A stretch of 64,000 bases of DNA from Betaproteobacteria bacterium Ga0077532. Lineage in GTDB: Bacteria > Pseudomonadota > Gammaproteobacteria > Burkholderiales > Ga0077523. Both the position numbers and the translations under genes were made by a program. Below are positions 10,368-35,728 of the stretch, piece after piece. Where the stretch lies: NCBI GenBank assembly GCA_001464895.1, contig LNEE01000051.1, positions 62,001-126,000 of the forward strand, in the 5' to 3' direction. Position 1 is the first letter of the stretch. Every line of letters starts with the position of its first letter. The notes below the pieces were generated by a model, which was given only the letters and a program-made list of their open reading frames with translations, made no database searches and was not told the origin of the DNA.

Positions 10368-10490
10368 CATCCGCACGCAGCTGAAAAAGGCAAACCCGTC
10401 GAAAGACGGGGACGCAAAGCTTCCGGTCTACCGTGCCGAATCGATGGCACCAGGACAGCGGGGCCACCAGGTGTCGGGACGGGTCGGATG
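10368..10490 (+). promoter_or_regulatory. c-di-GMP-I (GEMM-I) riboswitch aptamer
   Basis: AAAAAGGCAAACCCGTCGAAAGACGGGGACGCAAAGCTTCCGGTCTACCGTGCC...GGCACCAGGACAGCGGGGCCACC carries the GGCAAACC / GAAA tetraloop / GGACGCAAAGC / AGGACAGC core. P1 CATCCG(10368-10373)/CGGATG(10485-10490) is perfectly complementary. Confidence 0.9.
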
Positions 10491-33082: not shown

Positions 33083-33331
33083 GAAAAATCCTCCGGATGG
33101 TTTTTTTGTGCACGTGCGCGACGCCGCCGTCGCACCGGCCGCGGGAGGTTAGCAGAAGGTGTCTGATCGCAGACGCAACCCGTGCGGGCCCGGTGGTCAC
33201 CTCGGCGTGCCAGGGCGTCCCGACCACCTTCGGCGCGCGGCAATACGGATCGGGAGGGAAACGCACGAGAAAACCCGGAACGTCCGATGCAACCGGCGAA
33301 TCGCCGGTCAACCTCCCCGATCTTTGATGTG

Positions 33332-33374
33332 TGTCAACTTCTTTGGACATCGTCTTTGTAATCTTTATCTCACA
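33332..33374 (+). promoter_or_regulatory. two tandem TGT-N12-ACA boxes (PpsR/CrtJ-type) upstream of bchE
   Basis: TGTcaacttctttggACA (33332-33349) and TGTaatctttatctcACA (33357-33374), 7-bp gap, 26 bp before the bchE ATG. Confidence 0.75.
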
Positions 33375-33400
33375 CAAAGAGCGACCACCGGAGGACCCCG

Positions 33401-35068
33401 ATGCGCATCCTGTTGATCCACCCCAACTATCACTCCGGCGGCGCAGAGATCGCCGGCAACTGGCCGCCCGCCTGGGTGGCCTACCTCGCGGGTTCGCTGA
33501 AGAAGATCGGCTACACGGATCTGCGGTTCATCGACGCGATGACGAACCACCTCGACGAGGACGCCATCCGCAAGATGATCGCGGACGAGCAGCCCGACAT
33601 CGTCGGGTGCACCGCGATCACGCCGTCGATCTACAAGGCCGAGCGCATCCTTCAGATGGCGAAGGAGATCCATCCGGAAGCGGTCACGGTGCTGGGCGGT
33701 ATCCACGCCACTTTCATGTACCAGCAGGTGCTGACCGAAGCGCCCTGGATCGACGCCATCGTGCGTGGCGAAGGCGAAGAGATCTTCCAGCAGGTGGTGA
33801 AGACCATCGACGAGGGTCGATGGCTGCAGGACCGAGGCTCGATCCGCGGGATCGCGTACACGGACGGCGCGAAGATCATCGCGACGCCTGCGGCGCCGAC
33901 CGTCAAGGACCTCGACGGCATCGACCCCGACTGGGGCGTGCTCGAGTGGGAGAAGTACCAGTACATCCCCATGGGCAAGCGCGTCGCGATCCCGAACATG
34001 GCCCGCGGCTGCCCGTTCACATGCAGCTTCTGCTCGCAGTGGAAGTTCTGGCGCGACTATCGCATCCGCGATCCGAAGAAGGTGGTCGACGAGATCGAGA
34101 AGCTCGTGAAGGAACACGACGTCGGCTTCTTCATCCTTGCCGACGAGGAACCCACCATCAACCGTCGGAAGTTCGTGCAGTTCTGCGAGGAATTGATCGC
34201 CCGCGATCTCGGCATCCTCTGGGGGATCAACACCCGCGTCACCGACATCCTCCGCGACGAAGCCCTGCTGCCGCTCTTCCGCAAGGCGGGCCTGATCCAC
34301 GTGTCGCTCGGCACCGAGGCCGCGGCACAGCTGAACCTCGACCGGTTCCACAAGGAGACCACGGTCGCGCAGAACAAGAAGGCCATCCGCCTGCTGCGCG
34401 AGGCCGGCATCGTGGTCGAGGCGCAGTTCATCGTGGGTCTCGAGAACGAGACGGCCGAGACGCTCGAGGAAACCTACCGCATGGCGCAGGACTGGAAGCC
34501 GGACCTCGCCAACTGGTCGATGTACACCCCCTGGCCATTCTCCGACCTCTTCCAGGAGATGGGCGACAAGGTCGAGATCTTCGATTTCGAGAAGTACAAC
34601 TTCGTGACGCCGATCGTGAAGCCGGAGGCCATGGACCGCTCCGAGCTGCTCGACCGCGTGATGAACAACTATCGCCGCTTCTACATGCGCAAGGCGCTGT
34701 TCTCGTATCCATGGGCGGGCACCGGCGAGCGCCGCCGCTATCTGCTCGGTTGCCTGAAGGCTTTCCTCAAGAGCGGCTTCGAGCGGAAGTTCTACGACCT
34801 CGGACGCGTCAACTATTGGGGCCCGCAGTCGCGCCAGGGCGTGAACTTCAAGTTCGACGCGAAACGCGAGCGCCCGGTGCAGAGCGTCGTGCAATGGGCA
34901 CCCAAGCACGATCGCACGATGAAGGGCGAGCAGCAGGCGCAGATCATGGCCTGCGGCGGCGGAACGGAGCAGATGACGGACGAGGAGATGGATCTCGCGG
35001 TGATCGAGGCGAACCGCCCCCCGGTGGCATCTGCCGCACCACCATCCTCCAAGCCCGCGATGCACTGA
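33401..35068 (+). CDS. bchE: Mg-protoporphyrin IX monomethyl ester anaerobic oxidative cyclase (B12/radical SAM)
   Basis: [31 protein letters not shown]; radical [20 protein letters not shown] block characteristic of BchE. Confidence 0.92.
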
Positions 35069-35086
35069 CGACCCCGGGGCATCGGC

Positions 35087-35728
35087 ATGGCACCCACCAT
35101 CGCGCAATCGCGGACCGGGTCAAACGCGCGCGCCCAGACCACGCCATCGCGCGCCCGCATCGGCCCCAATGCGATCGTGCGTGTCGCCGAGGCCCTGGGC
35201 GAACGCATCGGCGCCGAGGCGACGGATGCCCTCTTCGCCCGGGCCGGACTCGCACGGCATCTCGTCCATCCGCCGACCGGGATGGTCGATGAAGCGGACG
35301 TCGCCCGCCTGCAGTGGCAACTCCGGGCCGACCTCGATGCCGATCTGGCGCGGGAGGTGGCGTGGGATGCCGGCACGCGCACCGGTGACTACCTGCTCGC
35401 GCATCGCATTCCGAAACCCGCGCAGTTCGTGCTGCGCCTTCTCCCGCCAGCCCTCGCGGCGCGAGTGCTGACGAAGGCCATCACGAAACACGCTTGGACC
35501 TTCGCCGGCAGCGGCACCTTTCGATGCGCGCCGGGGAACCCCTTCCGTCTCGTCATCGAACACAGTCCGCTGTGTTCCCGCATCCGGGCGTCCGCGCCCG
35601 TGTGCCAGTACTACAGCGCGACGTTCGAGCGGATCTTCCGGCAGCTCGTGAGCCACCGGGCGCGGGTCACCGAAGTCGAGTGCGAGGCTGCAGGGGGCGC
35701 AGCGTGCGTGTTCGAAGTGGCGTGGTGA
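35087..35728 (+). CDS. bchJ: bacteriochlorophyll 4-vinyl reductase-type (V4R) protein
   Basis: RIGPNAIVRVAEALGERIGAEATDALFARAGL...; C-terminal V4R region with C..C..H-like residues; directly downstream of bchE. Confidence 0.8.
   Translation: MAPTIAQSRTGSNARAQTTPSRARIGPNAIVRVAEALGERIGAEATDALFARAGLARHLVHPPTGMVDEADVARLQWQLRADLDADLAREVAWDAGTRTGDYLLAHRIPKPAQFVLRLLPPALAARVLTKAITKHAWTFAGSGTFRCAPGNPFRLVIEHSPLCSRIRASAPVCQYYSATFERIFRQLVSHRARVTEVECEAAGGAACVFEVAW

Follow-up and report, generated by a model that had tools for sequence, protein, structure and literature searches.

A predicted dual oxygen switch, with overlapping FNR and PpsR boxes, before bchE of Betaproteobacteria bacterium Ga0077532

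Two TGT-N12-ACA boxes precede the gene of the anaerobic Mg-protoporphyrin IX monomethyl ester cyclase, bchE, in the genome of Betaproteobacteria bacterium Ga0077532, and they raise the question of which regulators read this promoter and in what oxygen conditions the gene would be transcribed. The locus lies in the window, by which we mean the whole stretch of 64,000 nucleotides that was analysed, and contains two genes:

33401 to 35068, plus strand: bchE, anaerobic Mg-protoporphyrin IX monomethyl ester cyclase, radical SAM/B12, 555 aa (TIGR02026, 790.6 bits, cut-off 481)
35087 to 35728, plus strand: bchJ, directly 3' of bchE (TIGR02019, 185.5 bits, cut-off 74.3)

B12-binding and Radical_SAM domains were found in BchE, for which a PADLOC scan gave a weak radical-SAM match and nothing else. 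A bchJ homologue stands 3' of bchE in most related loci, and the two genes are probably co-transcribed. The oxygen-dependent cyclase AcsF is also encoded, as judged by a model match, in the photosynthesis cluster at about C51:135-186 kb. The earlier note had described bchE as standing apart from this cluster; the gene is indeed outside it, at C51:95401, but on the same contig and at a distance of only about 37 kb. An Rfam scan detected no RNA element near bchE. Elsewhere in the window, a c-di-GMP-I-GGC riboswitch aptamer was found at 10380-10472 (Rfam RF03167, 69.7 bits).

The boxes had been read in the earlier note as a PpsR/CrtJ operator, and both were found again in the same place, separated by 7 bp:

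33332 to 33349, plus strand: predicted PpsR/CrtJ box 1, TGT-N12-ACA, TGTCAACTTCTTTGGACA; register +8 from the start of the FNR box described below
33350 to 33356, plus strand: spacer between boxes 1 and 2, TCGTCTT, 7 bp
33357 to 33374, plus strand: predicted PpsR/CrtJ box 2, TGT-N12-ACA, TGTAATCTTTATCTCACA; register +33, covering the probable -10 element

A gap of 26 bp separates box 2 from the start codon of bchE (33401). A single box of this type carries little weight: the window contains 8 TGT-N12-ACA sites against 5.3 expected, and genome-wide pattern searches, in which the reversed pattern served as the control, returned 414 sites against 502, so that the motif is no commoner than chance and the count of single boxes was discarded as evidence. 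The pair is a different matter. With 414 single sites, the whole genome should hold about 0.035 perfect pairs at any one spacing, and yet one is present at 7 bp, before bchE, the sole perfect pair with this spacer in 4.93 Mb, which argues against a chance origin. Furthermore, in a genome of the same genus (G029), whose BchE is 97% identical, all 12 TGT/ACA bases of the two boxes are identical, and the substitutions are confined to the N12 interiors, plus one in the spacer.

The PpsR/CrtJ reading is only part of the picture, since the earlier note had overlooked an FNR-type box that overlaps box 1. The elements of the core promoter and of translation initiation are as follows:

33324 to 33337, plus strand: predicted FNR-type activator box, TTGATgtgtGTCAA, fitting TTGAYN4RTCAA
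33359 to 33364, plus strand: probable -10 element, TAATCT, at +35 from where the FNR box begins, assigned from this spacing and from its conservation in G029
33390 to 33394, plus strand: ribosome-binding site, GGAGG, 6 nt before the ATG, from sequence

The FNR box and box 1 share six bases, TGTCAA, a right half that occurs in no other of the 15 TTGAYN4RTCAA boxes listed for the genome; the reversed control returned a single site. The FNR box of a class II promoter has its centre near -41.5 relative to the start of transcription. With TAATCT at +35 as the -10 element, the box before bchE would be centred at about -40.5 from the predicted start site; TAATCT is the probable -10 element of bchE, at class II FNR spacing. 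The earlier note had instead assigned a -35 (TTGGAC) and a -10 (TATCTC, 33366-33371). This assignment is doubtful: TATCTC reads TGCCTC in G029 and for this reason was set aside, whereas TAATCT is kept there, at a spacing from the FNR box that recurs among related loci.

The same hexamers are the basis of an explanation in which PpsR represses a sigma-70 promoter, TTGGAC-17-TATCTC, and FNR is uninvolved. The geometry would suit it, since the boxes would then stand at -46/-29 and -21/-4, almost as the CrtJ boxes do at Rhodobacter capsulatus bchC (-47/-30 and -21/-4; PMC5362033), and one of the PpsR motifs of R. sphaeroides bchEJ, TGTCAACTGAAATGGACA, is very similar to box 1 (PMC4344238). However, besides the loss of TATCTC in G029, this explanation leaves aside a box that matches the FNR consensus TTGATN4ATCAA at 9 of 10 positions, belongs to a class with only 15 sites in this genome, is identical in G029 and recurs at a comparable position among bchE loci; we therefore regard it as quite unlikely.

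The recurrence of these elements was examined in 80 related bchE loci which, with the window, make 81. A TTGN8CAA box is found 55-100 bp before the start, typically about 70 bp before the ATG, in 68 of them; the stricter TTGAYN4RTCAA occurs in 40 loci (shuffled sequences: mean 0.05, maximum 1). As many as 40 of the 81 loci have perfect TGT-N12-ACA boxes within their last 120 bp, against a mean of 1.6 and a maximum of 6 in 200 shuffles. When the 68 FNR-anchored loci are aligned on the start of the FNR box, the PpsR boxes fall in preferred registers, -12 (6 loci), +8 (8 loci) and +32 to +34 (14 loci), and a TAnnnT follows at +35/+36 in 26. Where a tandem pair is present, one mismatch being allowed, the boxes are 7 bp apart in 12 loci, 8 bp in 6, 6 bp in 2 and 9-11 bp in one or two each; no spacer of 0-5 or 12-15 bp was found among the 81 loci.

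These numbers also bear on a simpler explanation, in which FNR alone controls the promoter and its half-site, together with an A+T-rich promoter, gives rise to the TGT-N12-ACA boxes as a by-product. The FNR-type box is in fact the most conserved element, box 1 borrows TGTCAA from it, and single boxes are not enriched in the genome. Moreover, the half-sites of FNR (TTGAT/ATCAA) and PpsR (TGTCAA/TTGACA) look alike, so that some overlap is favoured from the outset. Even so, where a TGT stands at +8 (19 loci), the partner ACA at +23 completes it in 8, against about 3% at other offsets, an excess far above chance in binomial values that assume independent loci and give no more than an indication. 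Both the register preference and the conditional excess of the partner half-site persist after dereplication, and box 2, which is independent of the FNR box, is nevertheless complete at +32 to +34 in the 14 loci mentioned. For these reasons, and for the pairs found elsewhere in the genome, we consider control by FNR alone unlikely. The combined arrangement is common and not universal: a perfect PpsR box is present in no more than about half of the bchE promoters and is missing at many FNR boxes that have an ATCAA end, and at the Rubrivivax benzoatilyticus locus (L080) no perfect PpsR box was found in the 300 bp before bchE.

If PpsR reads the pair before bchE, similar pairs could be expected at other photosynthesis promoters of the genome, as the earlier note had proposed to check. 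A search of the whole genome that allowed one mismatch and a spacer of 7 or 8 bp gave six tandem pairs, against none in the reversed control, and five precede photosynthesis genes: bchE, bchC, bchG, the divergent crtE/crt region and, distally, pucBA (bchC, bchG, BchE, BchJ, PpsR and AcsF are model hits, while the puf, puc and crt names come partly from translations read by eye). The bchC, bchG and crt-region pairs carry one mismatch each and are without a strict FNR box in the genome search for TTGAYN4RTCAA, which is difficult to reconcile with TGT-N12-ACA boxes as mere by-products of FNR sites. The pair before pucBA is the sole perfect 8-bp pair of the genome (C18:18378-18421, L031) and is unusually far, about 770 bp, from the start of pucB; no short puc gene was recognised in the translated frames between them. 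The bchG pair (C51:173435-173482, L028) ends only 3 bp upstream of the first ATG in its ORF, so that the bchG mRNA may lack a leader, or its translation may begin further downstream. The sixth pair (C13:177529-177571, L142; one mismatch, 7-bp spacer) lies just before an ORF that, by eye, resembles citrate synthase; it may be fortuitous, or it may connect PpsR with central metabolism.

The regulators themselves are encoded in the genome. The absence of a ppsR/crtJ homologue had been named beforehand as the observation that would speak against the PpsR/CrtJ reading; two were found, both in the photosynthesis cluster, scoring 543 and 311 bits against TIGR02040 (cut-off 275), and together with the pairs at other photosynthesis promoters they support this reading at the sequence level. 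The first, PpsR1 (543 bits), is encoded between an AerR-like B12-binding protein and bchG, and has an HTH_8 domain (42.7 bits) that is intact in all six same-genus copies inspected. Its Cys500, within the HTH region (IERLCIEAALEL), is conserved in the same-genus PpsR1 and is a candidate redox-sensing cysteine. PpsR2, next to a bacteriophytochrome and a heme oxygenase, has no HTH_8 domain detectable by a domain scan, its HTH being degenerate (L028:11972-13417, that is C51:177972-179417), and the equivalent proteins of four same-genus genomes (L156, L163, L164, L165) end after the last PAS domain, with no HTH; in six alphaproteobacterial loci, a ppsR beside a BphP gene retains it. PpsR1 is thus the likely DNA binder, since its HTH is intact and that of PpsR2 is not, and the organisation of PpsR2 suggests a non-DNA-binding partner between the phytochrome and PpsR1.

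The genome also encodes a true [4Fe-4S]-type FNR: the homologue has a CX2CX5C motif (ACSTCGLRELC), a further Cys (TCDS) and an ETVSR recognition helix, and among PDB entries it matches FNR 5cvr best (1.9e-59). In Rubrivivax gelatinosus, FnrL controls bchE and hemN, which encode oxygen-sensitive radical SAM tetrapyrrole enzymes; in the present genome an FNR box (C3:77698-77711, L127) stands where the fnr ORF begins, and a HemN-like ORF diverges from that ORF, so that FNR autoregulation and control of hemN through this box are probable. At least 11 Crp-type HTH genes are present, and one could imagine that the pair before bchE is used by another regulator with TGT/ACA specificity, such as a further Crp/FNR-family protein or PpsR2, whose gene neighbours that of the phytochrome BphP. 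The 18-bp box in tandem at 7-8 bp is, however, the described PpsR/CrtJ operator, found here on PpsR target genes, and the missing HTH of PpsR2 and of its four counterparts makes that candidate a poor one; this explanation seems to us very improbable.

We therefore return to FNR and PpsR1 acting together, which would account for all the elements of the bchE promoter, and we judge with good confidence that this promoter is a dual oxygen/redox switch, activated by FNR without oxygen and repressed by PpsR1 when oxidised. In the absence of oxygen, FNR would occupy 33324-33337 and activate a class II promoter with its -10 element at about 33359-33364; in oxidising conditions, PpsR1 would bind the tandem boxes cooperatively. 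Given the six bases common to box 1 and the FNR box, and the position of box 2 over the -10 element, PpsR bound to the boxes should exclude both FNR and RNA polymerase. As a result, bchE would probably be read only once oxygen is gone. Such an arrangement would explain, at the level of sequence, how one promoter could be governed by two regulators that respond to oxygen, with an oxygen-sensitive cyclase made only when it is workable, and the preferred registers make the competition between FNR and PpsR directly testable on one short fragment.

The relationships of BchE suggest where this arrangement may have come from. Among 300 genomes searched in the order, 8 were found to encode BchE. In a quick maximum-likelihood tree, the BchE of the window and that of G029 join a Steroidobacteraceae MAG (SH-aLRT 98), and the BchE of another genome of the same genus (G254) groups with the other members of the order; the affinity involves window positions 33401-35728 and loci L147, L034 and L148. 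The Steroidobacteraceae locus (L034) has the same layout, with an FNR box, a 5/6 match at +8 and a full box at +33. A horizontal transfer of bchEJ together with its promoter is plausible, and the switch may have travelled with the genes, given that BchE groups with Steroidobacteraceae and not with the same-genus relative. More generally, it is possible, if somewhat short of probable, that many bchE promoters of purple bacteria share a composite FNR/PpsR operator with a common half-site, registers -12 and +8 (second box +33) and an exclusive oxygen switch, perhaps moved here with the gene.

Separate control of bchE by FNR and by PpsR has been published for Rhodobacter. In R. sphaeroides, one study describes a PpsR ChIP-seq peak with two motifs at bchEJ and increased expression in a ppsR mutant (PMC4344238), and another reports that point mutations in the FnrL/CrpK site of bchE, with TCAA at -57, cut promoter activity by about 90% (PMC4263372); the gene, the two regulators, the nearly identical box and the similar position of the FNR site make this a close parallel. 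The overlapping arrangement seems undescribed: no report of overlapping FNR and PpsR sites or of a shared half-site was found in the literature searched, which left most subscription papers outside. CrtJ is also able to activate transcription anaerobically, according to a further article (PMC9144470), which counts against the proposed switch. In R. capsulatus, where bchE is likewise a CrtJ target with ChIP-seq peaks (PMC5362033), bchEJGP is listed among the promoters with CrtJ motifs 45-500 bp apart (eLife 2018, PMC6199135), so that the adjacent boxes of the window are a different arrangement. The AerR-PpsR/CrtJ gene pair is common to that species and to the genome under study. It is R. capsulatus bchC, with two TGTN12ACA boxes 8 bp apart, that offers a likeness in architecture, a tandem over the promoter core at nearly equal spacing; unlike bchC, the promoter described here has a spacer of 7 bp and an upper box fused to an FNR site.
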